DNA of 64,000 nt from NCBI GenBank assembly GCA_947500055.1, contig CANMQO010000003.1:1-64000 (forward strand), written 5' to 3'. This document shows, piece after piece, positions 614 through 12,248 of this stretch. The notes under the pieces were generated by a model, which was not told where the DNA came from, searched no databases, and saw only the letters and a program-made list of their open reading frames with translations. The stretch comes from an uncultured Paracoccaceae bacterium (lineage in GTDB: Bacteria; Pseudomonadota; Alphaproteobacteria; Rhodobacterales; Rhodobacteraceae). The position numbers and the translations under genes were made by a program. Position 1 is the stretch's first letter, and each line of letters begins with the position of its first letter.

Positions 614-1288
614 CTACATTTCCGCCATCGCGGATAGTGTATGTTCCAGACCCAATCTGATGTGTGCTTCCAGCACGGATTTCGCCTTTGCCGTATCCCT
701 TGCGAGGGCCGCATCGAACATGTCTTTATGTTCCTGCACGGCCTCTTGCCCGCGATAGGTAAGTACCAGCATTTGGTAACGCAGGTATTTGTCAAAGATC
801 GTCCCATGAAGCGATAGCAGGTTCAGCGAGTTGCACGCCTGGATCATCGCCTGATGAAACTCCCAGTCATAGCGCTTCCACGCTTCTTTCTGCGACGTGT
901 CCCCATCCAGCATCTTTTGCTCGATCAGGTGCAGCTTATGATGGGCCGCCACGAGGTTACCTTCCCAGTCGGCATCACCACAGGAAATGGACGTCTCAAG
1001 CGCTGAACATTCCAGCAGGATGCGCAGTTCGGCGATCTCGGTGAGATCCTCCGCCGAGACCGGGCGGACAAAGAAGCCCCGCTGTTCAGCGGCTTGTACA
1101 AAGCCTTCGCTTGCCAGGCGGTTCAGCGTCTCGCGCAATGTTGAGACGCTTGCGGAATAACGCTCACGCAAGCCGTCGAGCTTAAGTTTGGTACCAGGGG
1201 CCAGCTCACCAAAGATGATATCGTGCTTGATACGCTCATATGTGCTGGACCCGACCGTAGGTGCAGATGGTGACATGCCAAGCCTCAT
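614..1288 (-). CDS. GntR-family transcriptional regulator, FCD (FadR-like) C-terminal domain
   Basis: N-terminal winged helix (YERIKHDIIFGELAPGTKLKLDGLRERYSASVSTLRETLNRLASEGFV) plus an FCD-type helical domain; divergent from the catabolic operon. Confidence 0.9.
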   Translation of the reverse strand: MRLGMSPSAPTVGSSTYERIKHDIIFGELAPGTKLKLDGLRERYSASVSTLRETLNRLASEGFVQAAEQRGFFVRPVSAEDLTEIAELRILLECSALETSISCGDADWEGNLVAAHHKLHLIEQKMLDGDTSQKEAWKRYDWEFHQAMIQACNSLNLLSLHGTIFDKYLRYQMLVLTYRGQEAVQEHKDMFDAALARDTAKAKSVLEAHIRLGLEHTLSAMAEM

Positions 1289-1361
1289 GGAAAATCAGTT
1301 TTGCGGTCAATAACATGATTACCCGATATTCCTCAACGCTGGATAAAATAGGCGAATATAA

Positions 1362-1380
1362 AAAATATCCTATATTATTG
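1362..1380. promoter_or_regulatory. Candidate operator copy 1 (AAAATATCCTATATTATTG)
   Basis: In the divergent GntR/oxidoreductase intergenic region; matches the copies at 2489 and 8098. Confidence 0.5.
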
Positions 1381-1422
1381 CGAAATTGCTAAACTCTGCT
1401 AGCGTGCCCTCGAAACGCAAGG

Positions 1423-2490
1423 ATGAGGGGCCGCATGGCACAACCAGTGAAACTAGCGGTGGTCGGTGCGGGCCTGGTTGGGCAAAGGCATATTGCGGCG
1501 ATTGAGCGGGTTGAGGGTGTTACGCTTGCCGCTGTTGTCGAACCTGGCCCGACAGAGCAGAGCATTCCCGTCTTTGAAACCCTGACGGATATGTTCCGGA
1601 GCATCACCGTTGACGGTGTGATCTTGTCGACCCCGACGCTCTTGCATGTGCAAGGCGGTATGGAATGCGTGACCCGAGATGTGCCGGTCCTGATCGAGAA
1701 ACCCCTCGCGGCTTCTGCGGATGACGCAGAAGGTTTGATCACAGCCGCCAAGGATCGCTGCGTTCCGATCCTTGTGGGGCATCACAGGCGTCACAACCCG
1801 ATTATTCAAAAATCCGCCGAACTGATCAAAGAGGGGACAATCGGCCAGGTGCGCGTGGCGCAGGTCACATGCTGGTTCTACAAGCCCGACGACTATTTTG
1901 ATGTGGCGCCCTGGCGCAAGAAGGCAGGTGCCGGGCCGATCTCTGTCAATCTTGTACATGATGTCGATCTGATGCGTCATTTCCTGGGTGAGGTTGTCAC
2001 CGTACAGGCGCAGATGGCGCCTTCGATGCGGGGCTATGAAAACGAAGATCTTGCAGCTGCCGTACTGCGATTTGAAAGCGGTGCTGTATGTACAATTACG
2101 GTGTCGGACAGCGTGGTCTCGCCATGGAGTTGGGAACTCACTTCTCGTGAATATCCGATTTATCCGGCGACAAACGAGTCCTGCTATCTGATTGGTGGAT
2201 CAGAAGGCGCGCTATCGATCCCCGATATGCGCCTTTGGCAACATGATGGTGGCGCAAACTGGTGGAACCCAATCACGGCAACCACCATGCCCGTCAGTTC
2301 GTCCGATCCCCTGATTAACCAGATCGCACATTTCGAAGATGTCATCCGTGGCAAGGCCGAACCTTTGGTGAATGGCGTCGAAGGGTTAAAGACTCTGCGT
2401 GTCGTTGAGGCCATCCAAAAAGCTGCCGTAACCCAAAAACTGATCCATCTCGGCAAGTTACAGGAAGAATCCTCAACAGCTGCCGAATAA
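1423..2490 (+). CDS. Gfo/Idh/MocA-family NAD(P)-dependent oxidoreductase
   Basis: N-terminal VVGAGLVGQRHIAAIE Rossmann motif; EKPLA motif; DVDLMRHFLGEV. Confidence 0.92.
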   Translation: MRGRMAQPVKLAVVGAGLVGQRHIAAIERVEGVTLAAVVEPGPTEQSIPVFETLTDMFRSITVDGVILSTPTLLHVQGGMECVTRDVPVLIEKPLAASADDAEGLITAAKDRCVPILVGHHRRHNPIIQKSAELIKEGTIGQVRVAQVTCWFYKPDDYFDVAPWRKKAGAGPISVNLVHDVDLMRHFLGEVVTVQAQMAPSMRGYENEDLAAAVLRFESGAVCTITVSDSVVSPWSWELTSREYPIYPATNESCYLIGGSEGALSIPDMRLWQHDGGANWWNPITATTMPVSSSDPLINQIAHFEDVIRGKAEPLVNGVEGLKTLRVVEAIQKAAVTQKLIHLGKLQEESSTAAE

Positions 2491-2507
2491 AATATCATAT
2501 ATTTTGT
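2489..2507. promoter_or_regulatory. Candidate operator copy 2 (AAAATATCATATATTTTGT)
   Basis: Near-palindromic 19-mer shared with copies at 1362 and 8098. Confidence 0.5.
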
Positions 2508-2595
2508 AAAATCTATTGCGAAATGAGGGAAATGAGGCATTAATCTGCTGCACAACCAGCCCGGAGGGGCAATACAAACGTCTGGGAGGACACCA

Positions 2596-3603
2596 ATGAC
2601 ACTTACTTTGACACGTCGCCTCGCGATGGCCGCCATGGTCGCGGCGGGCACCTTTGCTGGCACCACAACATTCGCTGATGGCCATGCTATCCAGTTACGG
2701 ATGTCGACATCCGGTTCCGAGACCGATGCACGCTCTGTCGCATTGGCCGAAGTCTTCGGGCCGGCCGTTTCCGGCTTTGCGTCCTACGAGCCAAGCTACA
2801 ACGCGACACTTTTTGATCAGGGCACAGAGCTTGACGCGATCAGCCGCGGCAACCTAGAGATGTCGATCACGTCAGCACAGGAACTGGCACAGTTCTTCCC
2901 GGAGTTTTCGATTTTCGCAACCGGCTATGTCCACCAGGACGCAGCACATCAGGTCCGCGTTTTCAACGATCCGCTGATGGAGCCGTTCAAAGCAAAGGTC
3001 GAGGATGAACTGGGCGTAAAGCTTCTTTCGGTCATGTATCTGGGTCGTCGCCACGTGAACCTGCGCCAAACGCGCGAGGAACTGGATGTCCAAACGCCGG
3101 CTGATCTGGCGGGCGTGAACCTGCGGATGCCGGGCACCGATGCATGGCAGTTCCTCGGGGCGGCATTGGGCGCGTCCCCGACACCAATGGCCTTCTCCGA
3201 AGTCTACACAGGTCTGGCAACAGGCGCGGTTGACGGGCAGGACAACCCGCTGCCAACGGTTGTTGACCGCAAGTTCTACGAAGTCACAAAGCAAATCGCG
3301 CTGACATCGCACCTCGTTGACCTGAACTACATCGCGATCTCGGCCGAGACTTTCAACTCCATGACCGCTGAGCAACAGTTGAAAGTGCAGACTGCCGCAG
3401 ATGCCGCAGCGTCCGTGGGTCGTCTGCGTCAACTTGAACTGGAAAACAGCCTTGCTGCGTTCATCGAAGAGAATGGGGTTGAGGTCTACACCCCGGACGT
3501 TGCAGCTTTCCGTGAGCACGTGCAGGCGCAATATGTTGGCAGCGAATTTGCGGCGAGCTGGCCAGAAGGTGTGCTGGAGCGGATTAACGCACTTGGTAAC
3601 TAA
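2596..3603 (+). CDS. dctP: TRAP transporter substrate-binding protein (DctP family)
   Basis: Signal peptide, then LRMPGTDAWQFLGAALGASPTPMAFSEVYTGLATGAVDGQDNPLPTV, the DctP signature. Confidence 0.95.
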   Translation: MTLTLTRRLAMAAMVAAGTFAGTTTFADGHAIQLRMSTSGSETDARSVALAEVFGPAVSGFASYEPSYNATLFDQGTELDAISRGNLEMSITSAQELAQFFPEFSIFATGYVHQDAAHQVRVFNDPLMEPFKAKVEDELGVKLLSVMYLGRRHVNLRQTREELDVQTPADLAGVNLRMPGTDAWQFLGAALGASPTPMAFSEVYTGLATGAVDGQDNPLPTVVDRKFYEVTKQIALTSHLVDLNYIAISAETFNSMTAEQQLKVQTAADAAASVGRLRQLELENSLAAFIEENGVEVYTPDVAAFREHVQAQYVGSEFAASWPEGVLERINALGN

Positions 3604-3628
3604 GCCTTAGAATGAAGGACGACACACC

Positions 3629-4240
3629 GTGAGAAATATCTTCAAGTGGGTCTCCAGAATTTCTGACGCAATCGCAGCCACAATGCTGGCTGCGATTTTC
3701 TTTATTTTCCTGCTGCAAATCGGGTCGCGCTATGCGCCACAAATTGTTGGCTACTTCGGTCTGGCCGAACCGTTCCCGATCCTCGCATCCATCAAGCCGC
3801 TTGGCTGGACGCTAGAGTTGATCGCAGTGCTATGGGTTTGGGTCATCTTTTTCAGCTGTGCGTTTGTCGTTCGCGAATACGACCATGTGAAATTCGACAT
3901 CATCTACCTGTCGGCATCGCGCCGCGTCCGCACGGTATTTGCGATCATTTCGGCGGTCGCGATTGTGGCGGGGATGCTCTACGCTTTCTTGCCAACCTGG
4001 GACTACATCGACTGGATGAAAATCCGCAAAACATCAACTGTCCGTAATCCGTTCACAGGCAACAAGATCCCGCTAAGGACCGTGTTTTCCGTTTATGGCG
4101 CCTTCATGCTGGTCGTTGCCGCCCGCTACGCCTGGCTTGCCATCGAAACATACCGCTGCGGGCCGCCCAAGACAGAACTTGAGGTCGTGCTGGAGGCCGA
4201 AGCCGCCGCAGAGACCAACGAGAATGAGGCAAAGTCATGA
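3629..4240 (+). CDS. dctQ: TRAP transporter small permease (DctQ family)
   Basis: Four hydrophobic segments; position between DctP and DctM genes; ATGA overlap with the next gene. Confidence 0.9.
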   Translation: MRNIFKWVSRISDAIAATMLAAIFFIFLLQIGSRYAPQIVGYFGLAEPFPILASIKPLGWTLELIAVLWVWVIFFSCAFVVREYDHVKFDIIYLSASRRVRTVFAIISAVAIVAGMLYAFLPTWDYIDWMKIRKTSTVRNPFTGNKIPLRTVFSVYGAFMLVVAARYAWLAIETYRCGPPKTELEVVLEAEAAAETNENEAKS

Positions 4241-5532
4241 GCTTTGAACTCATCTCGATGCTGGTCACGCTTTTCTTCCTTGCCGGGATTGGTACGCCAA
4301 TTGGCTATTCAATTCTGCTCGCGTCGGTCGTGTATCTTGGTTTTGCGGGCCTTGATGTTGCCCTGGCAGGAGAGAAGATCCTGCAAGGCTTCTACAAGAG
4401 CGCCATTCTGCTGGCGGTGCCTTTGTTCATCGTTGCCGCCAACATCATGAACGCCGGTTCGATCACCGACAGGTTGCTGAACTTCTGCGTGGCTGTCGTC
4501 GGGCGTTTCAAAGGGGGGCTGGGGCACGTCAACGTGGTTGCATCACTGATTTTTTCAGGCATGTCGGGGTCTGCCGTGGCCGACGCCGCAGGTATCGGCA
4601 AGATCATTATTTCAATGATGACGCGCGACGGCCGGTATTCACGCGGCTATGCGGCGGCGATCACCGCCGCTTCCGCGACGATTGGCCCGATCATTCCACC
4701 GTCGATTCCGATGGTGCTATATGCGCTGGTGTCCAATGCGTCGATCGGCGCTCTGTTCCTCGCGGGTATCCTGCCCGGCCTGATAATGGGAGCCGTGCTG
4801 ATGGGCATGAACGGATATCTTGCCCACAAGCGCGGTTTTGCGGTTGAAGAGGCCGTACCGCTGAAGCAGTTGCCACGCACAACAGCGAACGCATTCCCTG
4901 CGCTCTTGATGCCGGTCATCCTGCTTTACGGTATCTATGGCGGCGTCACCACACCAACCGAAGCAGCGGCGGTTGCAGCATTTTATGCACTTTTGTTGGC
5001 CGCAATGTTCTACCGCGCCATCACACTCAAGGCACTTTACCAAGTTTTTGTTGATAGCGCCCGTTCATCCGCCGCAGTGGGCATCGTGATTGGTGGCGCG
5101 TTTATCCTCAACTACATCGTCATCACCGAGCAGATACCGCAGGCAATTTCGGCCTTCCTTGGCGAAACTGACATTAGCCCGTTGATGTTCCTGATCATGG
5201 TAAATGTTCTGATCCTGCTACTGGGCTGTGTGTTGGACGCAACGACAATCATTCTTGTGATTGTCCCCCTGTTCATTCCAACTTGCGAGGCGTTGGGCAT
5301 TGATCTGGTGCATTTTGGGGTCCTGGTTGTGGTGAATGCGATGATTGGCCTGATCACGCCGCCCTATGGCATCCTGCTCTTCGTGATCAACGCGGTGACA
5401 GATATCCCGCTGCGCGAAATCATCTCTGAAATCTGGGCGTTTCTTGTCGTGCTCATTGCTGCGCTGATCTTGATGATGCTCTCACCCGGTCTGGTTTTGT
5501 GGCTGCCGCGCCTGTTGGGCTATCAGGGCTGA
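4237..5532 (+). CDS. dctM: TRAP transporter large permease (DctM family)
   Basis: GMSGSAVADAAGIGKIIISMM...ATIGPIIPPSIPMVLYAL and LITPPYGILLFV motifs. Confidence 0.96.
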   Translation: MSFELISMLVTLFFLAGIGTPIGYSILLASVVYLGFAGLDVALAGEKILQGFYKSAILLAVPLFIVAANIMNAGSITDRLLNFCVAVVGRFKGGLGHVNVVASLIFSGMSGSAVADAAGIGKIIISMMTRDGRYSRGYAAAITAASATIGPIIPPSIPMVLYALVSNASIGALFLAGILPGLIMGAVLMGMNGYLAHKRGFAVEEAVPLKQLPRTTANAFPALLMPVILLYGIYGGVTTPTEAAAVAAFYALLLAAMFYRAITLKALYQVFVDSARSSAAVGIVIGGAFILNYIVITEQIPQAISAFLGETDISPLMFLIMVNVLILLLGCVLDATTIILVIVPLFIPTCEALGIDLVHFGVLVVVNAMIGLITPPYGILLFVINAVTDIPLREIISEIWAFLVVLIAALILMMLSPGLVLWLPRLLGYQG

Positions 5533-7277
5533 TGCTGACCCTCCCGACAAGTGTTGTACCGGGTCGGCTGCACGAAAAACTACGCGCTATTGCTGCGGGC
5601 GGATTTGATGCGATTGATCTGAGCCTGACCGATGTGGCCCAATTCGATGGGACATTGGCAGAGCTGGCAAGACTGATTGCCGAGGCCGGCCTCATCGTGG
5701 CGTCGCTTGGGCCCTTGGAGGCGGGTGCGACGTCGCTTGCGATTGCAGCCAAACAGGAGATGGCCAGGACGCTCGGGGTCAAATTACTGCTTGTCGAAAT
5801 CGCTGACCCCGTTTTGCCTGTTCTGCAAGGCCATCCTGATGTCAAAATAGCGCTCCGCCCAACGCGGGCTGTCGAGGCTGCGGTCACAGCATGGGTCAAG
5901 GAACGGAATGATCCGCAAATCGGTCTGGCGCTGAACGCCTTTGACGTTCTGGGCGATGGGTCGAGACCCGCGCGACTTCGCGATCTCGACGGCGCCGCCG
6001 TCTTTCACGTCGCCCTCTGGGATGGCCCTCAGCAACCAATGTTGCCGGGGCAAGGGACGCTCAATCTGGGCGGGTTGGCACGCGTTCTGGCCCGTGGCGG
6101 CTATGACGGGCCATGGTCTGTCGGGGTCGCGCCCGATGGGCCGGATACGGTGTCGAACGCCTATCGTGCGCTCGTGACGGTGTTGTCGGATGCGGCCATG
6201 ACAGAACCATTGCTGCGCGATGCAACCCCGAATTTGCCGCCGAAGGTTCCCACGAAAGGGTTTGAGTTTATCGAGTTTGCGGTCGATCCGGCAAGCGCTT
6301 CGGAATTGGAAAGCACGCTCACCGCCATGGCTTTCCGCAGGGAGCGCAAGCACCTGTCAAAGAAGGTCACGCTCTGGCGGCAAGGCGCCGTAAACATTGT
6401 GATAAACCAAGAGGGTGCGGGGCATGCAGGTCAGGCGTTTGAAGACCACGGGCCATGTGTTTGCGACATGGGGCTACGTGTGCAGGATGCCGCTGAAACG
6501 GTTGCGCGGGCCAAAGCGCTTGGCACACAGGATTTTCGCCAGTCGGTTGGCCTGGGAGAGCTGACCATTCCCGCCATCCACGGTGTGGGCGGCAGCGTCA
6601 TTCACTTTATCGATGAACATTCTGATCTCCACCGCGTCTGGGACATCGAATTTGAGCCGGTGACCCGGGCGCAGGCTGTCCCGCCTGCCGGGCTGCGCCG
6701 GATCGACCATGTGGCGCAGACCATGCGCTATGATGAAATGCAAAGCTGGCTGCTTTATTATTTGTCGACATTTGAGATGACGAAGACGCCGATCGTAAAC
6801 GTGACCGACCCCTCGGGCATTGTCCGCAGCCAGGCCATCGAAAGCCCGGAGGGCGATGTGCGCCTGAACCTCAATGGCGCCGCCGATGCGCAAACGCTGG
6901 CGGGGTCATTTGTCTCAGGGCGTCCGGGCGCGGGGGTGCAGCATATCGCCTTTCAAACGGACGACATTTTTGAAACCTCTGCGCAGCTGGCCGCCGCCAA
7001 CTTTGATCGTTTGGTGATACCGCACAATTATTACGTTGATACCCAAGCAACCTTTGGCTTGGACGATGATGAGGCCACGGCCTTACAACACCACAACATC
7101 CTCTACGATCATGATGTGCATGGCAGTTATTACCAACTTTACGGAGGAGCGATTTTCAATGGGTTCTTTTTTGAGATCGTGCAGCGGAAAGGGCGCTACG
7201 CTGGCTATGGCGCACGCAATGCGCCGGTCCGGTTGGCCGCACAATCACAGGCACGCAAACGCCAGGGTGCAGCATGA
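5532..7277 (+). CDS. QuiC-like fusion: xylose-isomerase-type TIM barrel plus 4-hydroxyphenylpyruvate-dioxygenase-like VOC domains
   Basis: N-terminal barrel; C-terminal RIDHVAQ, GVQHIAFQTDDIF and FFFEIVQRKGRYAGYGARNAPVRLA motifs. Start set at the TGATG overlap with dctM. Confidence 0.8.
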   Translation: MLTLPTSVVPGRLHEKLRAIAAGGFDAIDLSLTDVAQFDGTLAELARLIAEAGLIVASLGPLEAGATSLAIAAKQEMARTLGVKLLLVEIADPVLPVLQGHPDVKIALRPTRAVEAAVTAWVKERNDPQIGLALNAFDVLGDGSRPARLRDLDGAAVFHVALWDGPQQPMLPGQGTLNLGGLARVLARGGYDGPWSVGVAPDGPDTVSNAYRALVTVLSDAAMTEPLLRDATPNLPPKVPTKGFEFIEFAVDPASASELESTLTAMAFRRERKHLSKKVTLWRQGAVNIVINQEGAGHAGQAFEDHGPCVCDMGLRVQDAAETVARAKALGTQDFRQSVGLGELTIPAIHGVGGSVIHFIDEHSDLHRVWDIEFEPVTRAQAVPPAGLRRIDHVAQTMRYDEMQSWLLYYLSTFEMTKTPIVNVTDPSGIVRSQAIESPEGDVRLNLNGAADAQTLAGSFVSGRPGAGVQHIAFQTDDIFETSAQLAAANFDRLVIPHNYYVDTQATFGLDDDEATALQHHNILYDHDVHGSYYQLYGGAIFNGFFFEIVQRKGRYAGYGARNAPVRLAAQSQARKRQGAA

Positions 7278-8074
7278 CGGATGACGCAGAAGCCATCCGC
7301 GCATGGTGGCGAACGTCCATCATCGACATGGAGCCCGGCAAGATCGCGTTCCGCGGATACCCGATTGAAGAATTGATTGGCACCGTTTCATTCCCACAGA
7401 TGATCTGGTTGATGACCGCCGGGCGCTTGGCATCGCCGGAAGAGGCTGCCTTGCTGGAAGCAGCGCTTGTTGCAGGTGTTGACCACGGCCCGCAGGCACC
7501 TTCGATTGCAGCCGCTCGGATGACCGCAACCTGTGGTGTCGGGTTGAACAACGCGATGGCCAACGGCGTGAACATGCTCGGTGATGTGCATGGCGGCGCA
7601 GGCGAGCAATGTGCGGAGTTGTATTATGACATTGCAGCGCGGATGGCGGCGGGTGCCGGGCTAGAGGATGCAGTGCAAACTGGCCTTGATGACTGGCGCG
7701 CGGTGAACGGGAGAATCGTGAGCGGGTTTGGGCACCGGTTTCACAAACCCGTTGATCCGCGCGCGCCGCGTCTGATGGCGCTGGTGCGTGACGCTGCACA
7801 AGCGGGAACGGTCTCGGGCCGCTATGCGGATATCGGGGAAGCGGTGCAGGCCAATCTCGGCCGGAACCGTCCGCTTGCCATGAACATTGACGGCGCAACG
7901 GCTGTTATTTTTTGCGAATTGGGGTTTCCCGCACCCCTGTCCCGCGGACTTTTCTGCCTCTCTCGATCCGTTGGTATTCTGGCTCATGCATGGGAGCAGA
8001 TGCAGCAAGGTGGCCGGAACAAGGGGCCCATGCCACCGGCATATCTCCCAAAGTATGCGCCCTGGCCGACCTAG
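7274..8074 (+). CDS. Citrate synthase-fold protein, citryl-CoA lyase-like
   Basis: FRGYPIEELIG, GDVHGGAGEQ, VSGFGHRFHKPVDPRAPRL, NIDGATA motifs; only about 266 aa; ATGA overlap with the previous gene. Confidence 0.82.
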   Translation: MTDDAEAIRAWWRTSIIDMEPGKIAFRGYPIEELIGTVSFPQMIWLMTAGRLASPEEAALLEAALVAGVDHGPQAPSIAAARMTATCGVGLNNAMANGVNMLGDVHGGAGEQCAELYYDIAARMAAGAGLEDAVQTGLDDWRAVNGRIVSGFGHRFHKPVDPRAPRLMALVRDAAQAGTVSGRYADIGEAVQANLGRNRPLAMNIDGATAVIFCELGFPAPLSRGLFCLSRSVGILAHAWEQMQQGGRNKGPMPPAYLPKYAPWPT

Positions 8075-8097
8075 CAATCACAAATCATGTAATTGAT

Positions 8098-8116
8098 AAA
8101 ATATCATAGATTTTTG
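8098..8116. promoter_or_regulatory. Candidate operator copy 3 (AAAATATCATAGATTTTTG)
   Basis: In the 8075-8165 gap upstream of the TIM-barrel isomerase; matches the other two copies. Confidence 0.5.
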
Positions 8117-8165
8117 AATTCATAATATGATACTGCTACACGCAGAGATCGTAAGGTGATTCAAA

Positions 8166-9065
8166 ATGCCCGATCAGAATGGGAACCCTCTCTATTCCCT
8201 TGCGCACCTGACATTAATCAACGCGACGGCGCCGGAGTTGGTCTACATCGCTGCGCGCGCAGGTTATGACGCGGTCTCACCACGGTTCATCCAGATGAAT
8301 GTTCCGGGAGAGTTCCGTGAGAACCCTGTCGATAAAGCGATGGTTTCAGCCACCAAGACAGCGTTGAAGACGACCGGCCTGAAGGTCCTGGATATTGAAT
8401 TGGCGCGCATCACCGAAGATTGCGACCCGCGCAGTTTTGAGCCTGCCTGCGCGCTGGGTGGCGAACTTGGTGCGACCCGCATGATCATGTCCGCCTGGAC
8501 ACCGACACGGGATGATCGGGATTTCATCGTCGATTGCTACGCAGAAACCTGCGAGATCGCGGCACCTTACGGTCTGTCGGTCGATCTGGAATTTCCCAGC
8601 TTTAGCCGCCTGCGCACGCTTGACGAGACCCTGGACATCGTCCGCGCCGCTGATCAGCCAAACGGCGGCATCCTGGTTGATACGCTCTATCTGCATCTGT
8701 CACGCGTAGATCTTGCCGAACTGCTGCATGTTCCGGGTCAGTTGCTGAACTTTCTGCATATCTCAGACGCCTTGCCAGGTATCGCCGATACGCGGGAGGG
8801 CATGATCCAGCTGGCCCGCGATGCGCGGCTCTATCCCGGTGAAGGCTGCATCGATTTTGCCGGCATCATCGAACGGATGCCGCCGCTGGATTATTCGATC
8901 GAGTTGCCCAATCAGTCGCGCGTCGCGGAACTGGGCTTTGAAGAACACGCGCGTCGCTGCCTGAACCACGCCAAACGCACGTTCGGCGCCGTGCGGTCGC
9001 AGCGGCGTAATCACCCTATTCCTCCACAAGAAAGTATGATGACCGATGGCCAAAGAGCTTACTGA
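8166..9065 (+). CDS. Sugar phosphate isomerase/epimerase-type TIM-barrel protein
   Basis: VDLEFPSF, ILVDTLYLH, FLHISDAL, YSIELPN: conserved metal-ligand pattern of the AP-endonuclease-2/xylose isomerase-like family. Confidence 0.85.
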   Translation: MPDQNGNPLYSLAHLTLINATAPELVYIAARAGYDAVSPRFIQMNVPGEFRENPVDKAMVSATKTALKTTGLKVLDIELARITEDCDPRSFEPACALGGELGATRMIMSAWTPTRDDRDFIVDCYAETCEIAAPYGLSVDLEFPSFSRLRTLDETLDIVRAADQPNGGILVDTLYLHLSRVDLAELLHVPGQLLNFLHISDALPGIADTREGMIQLARDARLYPGEGCIDFAGIIERMPPLDYSIELPNQSRVAELGFEEHARRCLNHAKRTFGAVRSQRRNHPIPPQESMMTDGQRAY

Positions 9066-10455
9066 AAAAGACCGCCAACTGGCTGCCGACATGATTGCGC
9101 GCGCCCGTGTAGCAATGGTCGAGATCGAAAACTGGTCACAAGCCGAACTGGATCGGCTTTCACAGGCGATTGCCTGGTATGCAGGCAATGAAAAGACGTT
9201 TACGCGTCTCGCCCGCAAAGGCGTCGATGAAAGCGGGATTGGTGATCGTGAAGGGCGTCCGGCCAAGCGATTCAAAATCCAGATGGTTTTGCGGGATGTC
9301 TTGCGGACACCGTCGACCGGCATCGTCGAGGTTGATGAGGTCAAGGGTCTGGTCAAATACGCCAAACCTGCGGGTGTGATTGCGTCGCTTATTCCGATGA
9401 CAAACCCGGCGATGACCCCGCCTGTAACGGGTGTTTCCGCCGCAAACGCGCGGAACGCTGTCATCTTTTCCCCGCATCCCCGGACGGCCCGGACCACCTG
9501 GGAAATGACCGGAGTGATGCGCGCCGCATGCCGGGGCGCCGGTGCGCCCGAAGACCTTTTTCAATGCGTGCGTCACCCTTCGATTCCACTGACGCAACAT
9601 CTGATGGAAGAATGCGATCTGACCCTGGCAACCGGCGGCAAACCGATGGTCAAGGCGGCCTATTCCTCGGGGCGTCCGGCCTATGGCGTGGGGGCCGGCA
9701 ACGCATCCATCGTGATCGACGAAACTGCGGATATCGAAGTTGCGGCACAGAACACGCGGATATCCAAAACGTCCGATTTCGGTTCCGGCTGTTCAGCGGA
9801 CGGCAACATCATCATCCAGCAATCCATCTACGACCGCATGGTCAAGGCGCTGCAAGATGAAGGCGGCTATCTGTGCAATGCAGCGGAAACCGCACTGCTT
9901 GAGAAAGCGATGTGGGATGAGAAGGGCAATCGAACCTTCCCGACAATCGCATGCAAGCCGCAGCAAATTGCAGACGTAGCCGGGTTCAGTGTGCCAGAGG
10001 ATTGCAAATTCCTGATGGTCGACAACCACGGCGCCATTGGCCCGGAACACAAGTTCAGCAAGGAAAAGCTGACGACTGTGATGGCGCTCTATCGCTTTGA
10101 CACGTTCGATGATGCGCTCGACACCGTCCGCGCAATCTACAACACCGGCGGCAAAGGGCATTCTTGCGGGATTTACAGCCACAACGATGACAACATCGAC
10201 GCGCTTGCCCGTGTCGCACCCGTCAGCCGGATGATGGTGCGTCAACCGCAATCCAAAGCCAACGCCGGGGCATGGACCAACGGGATGCCCATGACCTCCA
10301 GCCTGGGCTGCGGCATCTGGGGTGGCAACATCACCAATGAAAACGTCACCATGAAACACATGATGAACTACACTTGGGTCGCCCGACCCATCCCCGAGGA
10401 CCGCCCATCAGAAGAAGAGCTGTTCGGGGAATTCTACGGTCAGGAGGTCGCGTAA
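9046..10455 (+). CDS. Acylating (CoA-dependent) aldehyde dehydrogenase, EutE/SauS-like
   Basis: NPAMTPPVTGVSAANARNAVIFSPHPR, KTSDFGSGCSADGNIIIQ (catalytic Cys), GAWTNGMPMTSSLGCGIWGGN. Confidence 0.85.
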   Translation: MAKELTEKDRQLAADMIARARVAMVEIENWSQAELDRLSQAIAWYAGNEKTFTRLARKGVDESGIGDREGRPAKRFKIQMVLRDVLRTPSTGIVEVDEVKGLVKYAKPAGVIASLIPMTNPAMTPPVTGVSAANARNAVIFSPHPRTARTTWEMTGVMRAACRGAGAPEDLFQCVRHPSIPLTQHLMEECDLTLATGGKPMVKAAYSSGRPAYGVGAGNASIVIDETADIEVAAQNTRISKTSDFGSGCSADGNIIIQQSIYDRMVKALQDEGGYLCNAAETALLEKAMWDEKGNRTFPTIACKPQQIADVAGFSVPEDCKFLMVDNHGAIGPEHKFSKEKLTTVMALYRFDTFDDALDTVRAIYNTGGKGHSCGIYSHNDDNIDALARVAPVSRMMVRQPQSKANAGAWTNGMPMTSSLGCGIWGGNITNENVTMKHMMNYTWVARPIPEDRPSEEELFGEFYGQEVA

Positions 10456-12248
10456 TGGATGGCACAAAAGTGGACGGCAAAACCGTCGCGGAACACATCG
10501 TTGATTTCCTGCAACGACGTGAAGTTCAGCATGTATTCGGCCTATGTGGCCATACCAATATCGCCGTTCTGGCCGCCCTTGCTGAAAGTCCGATAGATTT
10601 CATCACGGTGCGCCACGAACAAATCGCAAGCCATGCCGCCGATGCTTATGCACGGGTGACAGGGCGTGCGTCCGTCGTGCTGTCACATCTTTCGCCTGGG
10701 TTGACAAACTGCGCGACTGGCGTGGCCAACGCGGCCCTTGACTGTATTCCGATGGTCGTGATCGCAGGTGACATCCCGACGCATTACTATGGCAAGCATC
10801 CCCACCAAGAGGTGAACCTGCATGCCGACGCCGCTCAATGGGAGATTTATCGCCCCTTCGTGAAGCGGGCCTGGCGCGTGGATCGCGCCGATCTCATGGC
10901 TGAGATACTTGAAAAGGCGTTCCATCTAGCCGAGAGTGGCCAGCCAGGGCCGGTTCTGGTGAACGTGCCGATGGACATTTTCAGCGAGGTTATCTCTTCC
11001 GAGACGTTCGACCGGGTGGCCAAAAACACCCGTGCGTTGACAAAGCCAGGTCTTGATGATGACACCGCCCGCGCAATTGTCGCGAAAATCGCCAAGGCCG
11101 AAAAACCGGTCGCCTATGTCGGTGGTGGCATACTGCTCGCGCAGGCGTCGGCGGAATTGGAGACATTCGCGACCCATATGGGACTACCTGTCGCGCACTC
11201 CCTCATGGGGAAAGGTGCGCTGCGTGATGACCATCCGCTCGTGATGGGTATGACCGGGTTCTGGGGCACCGAACTGGTCAACCAAACCTGCCTGAACGCG
11301 GATCTCGTGTTTGCCGTCGGTACCCGGTTCAAAGAAGCGGATTGCTCAAGCTGGTATCCCGGCTACACGTTCAACATCGGTGCGGCGGGCAATGATACCA
11401 AAGTCATCCACATTGATATCGAGCCGCAGGAAATCGGAAGGAACTACCCGACGGAGATTGGTGTTGTCGCTGACGCAAAAGCCGCATTGCGCGTACTGAT
11501 CCGCGTCGCAAGAGAGATGCACCCCAACGGCATTGATCGCACCGAAAAGAAGCGTGAAATCGCGACATTTCGCGAGAGTTTCAAAGCCTCGAATATCGAC
11601 ATGCAAACCTCCAACGCATTTCCGATGATGCCTGAACGTATTCTGGCCGAGACGCGCATCGCATTGCCTGATGATGCGATCATCACCACTGATGTGGGCT
11701 GGAACAAGAATGGCGTCGGTCAGCAGTTCGATATTCTGACACCGGGATCAATTTTGACGCCGGGGGGATTTGCCACGATGGGGTTTGGCCCGCCTGCCGC
11801 GATCGGGGCAAAGCTCGCAGCCCCTGAACGTGTCGTGTTGAGCCTCGTCGGCGATGGCGGCTTCGGGCAGAATCCCTCTATGCTGGCGACCGCCGTAGAG
11901 TTGAACCTTGGGATCATCTGGCTTGTGATGAACAACAACGCTTTTGGGACCATCGCCGGGCTGCAAAAAGCGCATTACGGCCTGACCTATGGCACGATCT
12001 TCCCGGGCAGTGCGGAGGCACCCACAAACGGCCCAAGTTACGCTGCCATTGCTCGTGCCTACGGGGCTGAGGGCATTCGGATATCATCCGCGGATGAACT
12101 GCTGCCAGCCCTACGGGCCGCAATTGCCAGCGGGAAGCCGACGGTGCTGGATGTTCCCATGATCAACAACCCAACACCAACAACCGGTCACTGGAATATC
12201 CTTGATATCTATTCCCCCGATAAGGACATAAGCCACGTCTCAACCTGA
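10455..12248 (+). CDS. Thiamine-diphosphate-dependent enzyme, acetolactate synthase-like
   Basis: VRHEQIASHAADAYARVTG (catalytic Glu) and GDGGFGQN...NNNAFG ThDP-binding motif; TAATG overlap with the previous gene. Confidence 0.9.
   Translation: MDGTKVDGKTVAEHIVDFLQRREVQHVFGLCGHTNIAVLAALAESPIDFITVRHEQIASHAADAYARVTGRASVVLSHLSPGLTNCATGVANAALDCIPMVVIAGDIPTHYYGKHPHQEVNLHADAAQWEIYRPFVKRAWRVDRADLMAEILEKAFHLAESGQPGPVLVNVPMDIFSEVISSETFDRVAKNTRALTKPGLDDDTARAIVAKIAKAEKPVAYVGGGILLAQASAELETFATHMGLPVAHSLMGKGALRDDHPLVMGMTGFWGTELVNQTCLNADLVFAVGTRFKEADCSSWYPGYTFNIGAAGNDTKVIHIDIEPQEIGRNYPTEIGVVADAKAALRVLIRVAREMHPNGIDRTEKKREIATFRESFKASNIDMQTSNAFPMMPERILAETRIALPDDAIITTDVGWNKNGVGQQFDILTPGSILTPGGFATMGFGPPAAIGAKLAAPERVVLSLVGDGGFGQNPSMLATAVELNLGIIWLVMNNNAFGTIAGLQKAHYGLTYGTIFPGSAEAPTNGPSYAAIARAYGAEGIRISSADELLPALRAAIASGKPTVLDVPMINNPTPTTGHWNILDIYSPDKDISHVST

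Follow-up and report, generated by a model that had tools for sequence, protein, structure and literature searches.

A conserved bacterial gene cluster for the possible breakdown of quinate/shikimate-type acids without an aromatic stage

We analyzed a catabolic locus at positions 614-12248 of a 64,000 nucleotide stretch of DNA (the window; contig CANMQO010000003.1 of assembly GCA_947500055.1) from an uncultured Paracoccaceae bacterium. The locus encodes, in this order, a Gfo/Idh/MocA dehydrogenase (Gfo), the three components of a tripartite ATP-independent periplasmic (TRAP) transporter (DctP, DctQ and DctM), a fusion protein related to 4-hydroxyphenylpyruvate dioxygenase (HPPD), a citryl-coenzyme A (CoA)-lyase-like protein (CitL), a TIM-barrel protein (TIM2), an acylating aldehyde dehydrogenase (ALDH) and a thiamine diphosphate (ThDP) enzyme. 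Quinate and shikimate abound in plants; the route described for their breakdown in bacteria passes through protocatechuate, which requires oxygen-dependent ring cleavage. The cluster described here looks like a possible, previously undescribed means of breaking down these acids, in which the ring would be opened and split to two central metabolites and an aromatic stage avoided. We consider the chances evenly balanced that the operon breaks down a quinate/shikimate-type hydroaromatic acid via homocitryl-CoA, with no aromatic intermediates; the substrate, the order of the steps and every reaction are what we infer.

In the proposed route, the TRAP system would import the acid, and the Gfo/Idh/MocA dehydrogenase (1423-2490; Pfam GFO_IDH_MocA) would oxidize a ring hydroxyl, in the case of quinate giving 3-dehydroquinate; in other clusters the shikimate dehydrogenase AroE, together with a dehydroquinate dehydratase, AroQ or AroD, would help to bring the acid to this point. 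3-Dehydroquinate is a tertiary alcohol that bears a carboxylate and has a CH2 on both sides. TIM2 (8166-9065) would act as a 3-dehydroquinate dehydratase, removing the hydroxyl beta to the ketone in a reaction of the type carried out by IolE and dehydroshikimate dehydratase, and the resulting cyclic 1,2-dione would be unable to aromatize while the tertiary hydroxyl remains. The ThDP enzyme (10455-12248) would open the dione hydrolytically to homocitrate semialdehyde, an isomer of 3-dehydroquinate. The regiochemistry assumed puts the aldehyde on the shorter arm, and only that opening would suit the lyase. The ALDH (9046-10455) would convert the semialdehyde to homocitryl-CoA, and CitL (7274-8074) would cleave homocitryl-CoA to acetyl-CoA and 2-oxoglutarate by a retro-Claisen reaction, so that C7 becomes C2 plus C5 with no carbon lost.

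The locus is very likely a conserved catabolic unit, and its conservation is much greater than chance would produce. Using the CitL protein to query a sample of 199 genomes of the family, we found a match in 47, and among the loci fetched with flanks, the linked cluster with its gene order preserved was present in 12 genomes besides that of the window, although some of the 12 clusters end at contig edges or miss single genes. The remaining fetched loci held a CitL paralogue instead, often with a gene resembling a CaiB CoA-transferase. One such paralogue (L049-L070; approximately 60-69% identical) recurs with the CaiB-like gene and several transporter-like genes, as judged by eye, and this group possibly represents a pathway for a citrate-type acid. 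When we scanned the genome collection with aligned sequences of the ThDP enzyme, 574 relatives emerged. Most of the best 80 loci carry the cluster, and these 80 span Rhodobacteraceae-type genera, Rhizobiaceae, Labrenzia, SAR324, a metagenome-assembled genome (MAG) of Acidimicrobiia, a Desulfofustis MAG and the UASB270 genome. Ruegeria and Aliiroseovarius are among the genera bearing the full cluster. Conservation as a unit, whose absence had been named beforehand as grounds for giving up the idea of a catabolic unit, thus holds in Rhodobacteraceae-type genomes and far beyond them. In a genome of the same genus (G449; loci L197 and L096) the cluster is split between two distant sites, with the GntR regulator, Gfo, TRAP, HPPD fusion and CitL genes at one and the TIM2, ALDH and ThDP genes at the other. 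Both halves have thus been retained even when unlinked. An HpcH/HpaI-aldolase-like gene, judged by eye, comes after the TIM2-ALDH-ThDP half in this genome.

A clue to the chemistry lies in the exchange of two lyases. Among the 57 long loci (19.9 kb or longer), to which all counts out of 57 refer, 43 have CitL, 10 have a gene for a protein resembling 3-hydroxy-3-methylglutaryl (HMG)-CoA lyase (HMGL), none has both and four have neither. A hypergeometric calculation gives 2e-8 for this mutual exclusion, which is not a true probability as the loci are related. One CitL-bearing locus, L175, sits nested within the HMGL clade of the ThDP tree. Citryl-CoA-lyase-like and HMG-CoA-lyase-like proteins are unrelated enzymes that both split a 3-hydroxyacyl-CoA, releasing acetyl-CoA together with a keto compound. 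The catalytic residues are intact in both types here. CitL scores 436 bits against the citryl-CoA lyase model NF004864 (cut-off 261), its best solved relative is 6hxp, and H106, H154 and D206, which align with 6hxp and with citrate synthases, are present in 56 of 56 orthologues; both of the HMG-CoA-lyase-like proteins tested score above the cut-off of NF004283. Because two unrelated lyases substitute for each other, a 3-hydroxy-3-carboxyacyl-CoA is probably formed and then cleaved. This would be homocitryl-CoA in the proposed route, or else citryl-CoA.

An acylating ALDH is encoded in all 57 long loci, and its Cys249 is present in 78 of 78 sequences. Where it is replaced, the replacement also leads to an acyl-CoA: in a distant Streptomyces cluster an NAD-type ALDH is found with a CaiB CoA-transferase, and in the cluster of Azoarcus sp. 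KH32C a CoA transferase. Since the ALDH and its replacements all point to an acyl-CoA and the lyases are exchanged, we propose an aldehyde, then an acyl-CoA, then a retro-Claisen cleavage, and consider acyl-CoA cleavage likely to be part of the pathway. The best NCBIfam match of the ALDH is SauS (NF047625; 425 bits), and Xsc is a distant match to the ThDP enzyme (283 bits), which might suggest a sulfonate route of the sulfoacetaldehyde (SauS/Xsc) type. Both scores lie under their cut-offs (600 and 676 bits), and the partners that are conserved (shikimate dehydrogenase, dehydroquinate dehydratase and acyl-CoA lyases) do not suit such a route, which we therefore rejected as extremely unlikely, in agreement with the sequence-only reading of this DNA that preceded our analysis.

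Neighboring genes of the shikimate pathway provide a clue to the substrate. AroE-type shikimate dehydrogenase, above the cut-off of NF009201, is encoded in 25 of the 57 loci, and AroQ, a type II 3-dehydroquinate dehydratase, in seven (above the cut-off of TIGR01088 in both tested). In the Azoarcus cluster a type I AroD (TIGR01093) stands next to AroE, and AroE is present in the Streptomyces cluster. Binomial tails were 1.8e-27 for AroE and 1.7e-6 for AroQ under an assumed chance of 2% and 1% per locus, respectively, values that are not true probabilities because the loci are related. On the ThDP tree the gain and loss of AroE requires at least 18 state changes, which argues for repeated association. 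The AroE, AroQ and AroD neighbors therefore suggest that the substrate is likely a hydroaromatic, quinate/shikimate-type acid. The Gfo/Idh/MocA protein scored 112 bits against an iolG cut-off of 355 and had distant solved relatives only.

The central enzymes retain their putative active sites. In TIM2, E142, D172 and E246 are present in 70 of 70 sequences and H198 in 67 of 70, with a spacing that resembles the QuiC ligands. The nearest solved folds to its predicted model (mean predicted local distance difference test score, 86.6) were IolI, the N-terminal TIM domain of a QuiC fusion and a putative sugar isomerase, with IolE further down. A TIM2-like protein, 37% identical, is encoded on the Azoarcus plasmid pAZKH (L092:30021-30896) beside an IclR regulator gene, approximately 13 kb from the cluster. 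The ThDP enzyme belongs to an acetolactate synthase (ALS)-like family and lies under every curated cut-off shown; H33-T34-N35 and E55 are found in 80 of 80 sequences. Its GHTN aligns with the GHTS of cyclohexane-1,2-dione hydrolase (CDH) and the GHGN of IolD, a shared His motif that may favor ring opening of the dione type and is supportive only. GHTN as proof of a dione hydrolase was set aside, weakened by another ThDP paralogue with GHSN.

The fusion (5532-7277; best solved relative, 5hmq) joins a degenerate QuiC-like TIM barrel to an HPPD-like Fe(II) dioxygenase domain. Its homology to QuiC raises the classical quinate route, in which the fusion would be a dehydroshikimate dehydratase making protocatechuate and the other genes would serve another purpose. 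We compared it with published active-site residues of dehydroshikimate dehydratase (PMC7442255, PMC9324987). The window barrel aligns with QuiC and has R in place of the metal ligand Glu134, N for the ligand Asp165, A for Gln191 and G for the ligand Glu239; at 343 bits it is far from the QuiC cut-off of 1200. By these residues it would be a non-working dehydratase. CitL-type clusters have generally lost the ligands, and the HMGL-type clade much less so; its listed loci keep Glu134 in 12 of 12 and Asp165 in 7 of 12, which counts in favor of the classical route. In the genome of the window, rated 100% complete, every QuiC match fell far short of the cut-off, and the window fusion itself scored best among them. 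Neither a protocatechuate 3,4-dioxygenase beta subunit (PcaH, TIGR02422) nor a LigB-type protein (PF02900; the protocatechuate 4,5-dioxygenase family) was found there, other ring-cleavage types not having been searched, so protocatechuate could be taken no further by those two known routes. With the dehydratase ligands lost and neither dioxygenase found, we rejected the classical route as very improbable.

The dioxygenase half of the fusion is another matter. It scores 201 bits against TIGR01263 (4-hydroxyphenylpyruvate dioxygenase; cut-off 277), and its Fe(II) triad H404, H482 and E559 (numbered from 5499) is kept in 62, 61 and 62 of 62 loci. The cluster L141, from the same genome region as L097, has no fusion there, its upstream sequence having been read. 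Given a nearly invariant triad in a protein absent from some clusters, the fusion probably carries out an oxygen-dependent accessory step. It could instead take part in a route to citryl-CoA: oxidative ring cleavage, by the HPPD-like domain or by enzymes elsewhere, would give 4-carboxy-4-hydroxy-2-oxoadipate, ThDP-dependent decarboxylation citrate semialdehyde, the ALDH citryl-CoA and the lyase acetyl-CoA plus oxaloacetate. This gives the conserved HPPD domain a job, lets citryl-CoA, as annotated, be the real substrate of the lyase and has the ThDP enzyme act as a decarboxylase, as is usual for its superfamily. We nevertheless regard it as unlikely, as PcaH and LigB-type dioxygenases were not found in the genome, no hydratase for the route was recognized in the cluster, the fusion is missing from several clusters, that of the L141 genome included, and protocatechuate was not attacked by full-length QsuB (PMC7442255). 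Fusions like those of the window and of L101-L180, with the dehydratase seemingly dead and the Fe triad kept, offer a lead on the C-terminal HPPD-like domain of QuiC and QsuB.

DctP (2596-3603), DctQ (3629-4240; Pfam DctQ, 41.9 bits) and DctM (4237-5532; TIGR00786, 398 bits against a cut-off of 268) are encoded together as a TRAP system. DctP (Pfam DctP) shares 75% identity with RD1_0742 of Roseobacter denitrificans (PDB 4pf6), and its next fold neighbors are the sialic-acid-binding SiaP proteins. The substrate in the window might accordingly be a 3-deoxy-2-ulosonic acid such as 3-deoxy-D-manno-octulosonic acid (KDO), presumed here to be the ligand of 4pf6, or a related algal sugar acid, with AroE and AroQ elsewhere being substrate extensions. 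Sialic acids are likewise ulosonic acids, and sugars are common substrates of the Gfo/Idh/MocA and TIM-barrel families. A sugar acid nonetheless leaves the AroE, AroQ and AroD of many clusters and the need for a 3-hydroxyacyl-CoA lyase unaccounted for, and we judge it improbable. The pyranose of KDO and quinate are alike in having a ring carbon with OH and COOH next to a CH2, and KDO could be a mimic; given this likeness around the carboxylate, the binding-protein comparison leaves the substrate undecided.

Several points weigh against quinate/shikimate breakdown through homocitryl-CoA, the exact route to which we give about an even chance. The HPPD domain occurs in 48 of the 57 clusters, yet the model assigns no job to the fusion. 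Neither AroE nor AroQ is encoded in the window cluster, which leaves the oxidation to its Gfo enzyme. The structure of the orthologous binding protein, 4pf6, was reportedly solved with KDO and not quinate. In the Azoarcus cluster a QuiC-like TIM barrel stands in for TIM2, and the genes listed include no ALDH. Finally, a further ThDP paralogue (L192; G449:C3) has GHSN at the GHTN position, and the ThDP enzyme scores higher against acetolactate synthase (large subunit, TIGR00118; 419 bits, cut-off 538) than against IolD (TIGR04377; 237 bits, cut-off 715).

These results support the sequence-only reading in part. It had proposed a complete route from an imported hydroxy or cyclic acid through a 2-oxoacid and an aldehyde to an acyl-CoA; a single catabolic unit, uptake of a cyclic hydroxy acid, conversion of an aldehyde to an acyl-CoA and C-C cleavage at a CoA thioester all stand. 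The ThDP enzyme as a straight 2-oxoacid decarboxylase is one option only and was not supported as stated, ring opening of a cyclic dione being a better fit. Such ring opening is the logic of the inositol route, which the earlier reading had excluded. It had also set the cluster apart from the classical quinate route, which is correct for the chemistry and not for the substrate, related as that is by the AroE, AroD and AroQ neighbors. That it could match the full set to no described pathway agrees with our search of the open-access literature, which omits most subscription journals: we found there no description of a matching pathway, of homocitryl-CoA or of the gene combination, and nothing relevant on RD1_0742/4PF6, on quinate with TRAP transporters or on hydroaromatic fermentation.

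With respect to the structure of the locus, examination of the open reading frames and junctions over approximately 11 kb showed nine co-directional plus-strand genes, from the Gfo to the ThDP gene, where eight had been counted before. The junctions are as earlier given (ATGA at 4237, TGATG at 5530, ATGA at 7274, TAATG at 10453 and a 20-nt overlap at 9046-9065), and the domain assigned to each gene was borne out by Pfam and NCBIfam. The start of the HPPD fusion is probably the ATG at 5532 rather than the GTG at 5499, because the ATG overlaps the DctM stop. The divergent GntR-FCD gene, also recognized previously, lies on the minus strand at 614-1288 (Pfam FCD, 68.5 bits; GntR, 58.6 bits); it is the probable regulator of the cluster, and its orthologue adjoins many of the others. 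Between it and the Gfo gene is an A+T-rich, partly palindromic motif of 25 bp, AAAAAATATCCTATATTATTGCGAA (1360-1384), whose core is common to most of the aligned upstream regions and which is likely an operator or promoter. Promoter and terminator scans of the sequence did no better than on shuffled sequence.

Other genes were seen near related clusters. A protein of approximately 226 amino acids with no Pfam match (L097:5045-5725 and orthologues) is flanked by two extra Gfo/Idh/MocA genes in 24 of the 57 long loci. Upstream of a cluster that has no HPPD fusion, in genome G396, are a 3-oxoacid CoA-transferase-like pair and a thiolase-like gene (L199:5479-8075; judged by eye). Plasmid pUSP3 of Aminobacter sp. 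MSH1 (L095) has a separate cluster with two ThDP enzymes, a Gfo/Idh/MocA protein, a TIM-barrel protein, an ALDH and a cupin.

Decades ago, quinate was reportedly found to be fermented without passing through aromatic intermediates, with no genes given, and the cluster is a candidate for the gene set behind it. If true, a non-aromatic route would explain the use of quinate and shikimate by organisms without those dioxygenases, possibly including anaerobes; the Desulfofustis MAG and the UASB270 genome, both from candidate anaerobes, carry the ThDP-ALDH core. That the route through 3-dehydroquinate and homocitryl-CoA is widespread, oxygen-independent and ended by either of two unrelated lyases is a tentative proposal, which we place somewhat short of an even chance.

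The nearest known systems each share a part of the proposed chemistry. Catabolism of myo-inositol by IolG, IolE and IolD likewise combines oxidation of a ring hydroxyl by a Gfo/Idh/MocA enzyme, dehydration by a TIM barrel to a cyclic 1,2-dione and ThDP-dependent ring opening, and IolD has the His motif in common with the window ThDP enzyme. It differs in that the window dehydrogenase and ThDP enzyme fall outside the Iol families by score, and in continuing with a kinase and an aldolase where an acyl-CoA and a retro-Claisen lyase are expected here. The Azoarcus cyclohexane-1,2-dione hydrolase (2pgn) is a ThDP enzyme that cleaves a C-C bond of a cyclic 1,2-dione (PMC12247030); over the N-terminal stretch compared it has a GHT motif, and its His28 aligns with the His of the window enzyme, but by score it is not among the close relatives of that enzyme. 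The classical QuiC/QsuB route resembles related clusters in its AroE-type dehydrogenase, dehydroquinate dehydratase and QuiC-like fusion, whereas here the dehydratase metal ligands are lost, genes for the formation and cleavage of an acyl-CoA are added and no protocatechuate dioxygenase was found among the two types searched. Citryl-CoA lyase (PRK06224; 6hxp) is matched by CitL in family score and in the conserved His, His and Asp, but the partner of CitL is an acylating ALDH and not a citryl-CoA ligase, and its proposed substrate is homocitryl-CoA. HMG-CoA lyase, finally, is represented by the HMGL-like gene that substitutes for CitL in clusters other than that of the window, and the substrate expected for it would carry a carboxyl in place of the methyl of HMG-CoA.

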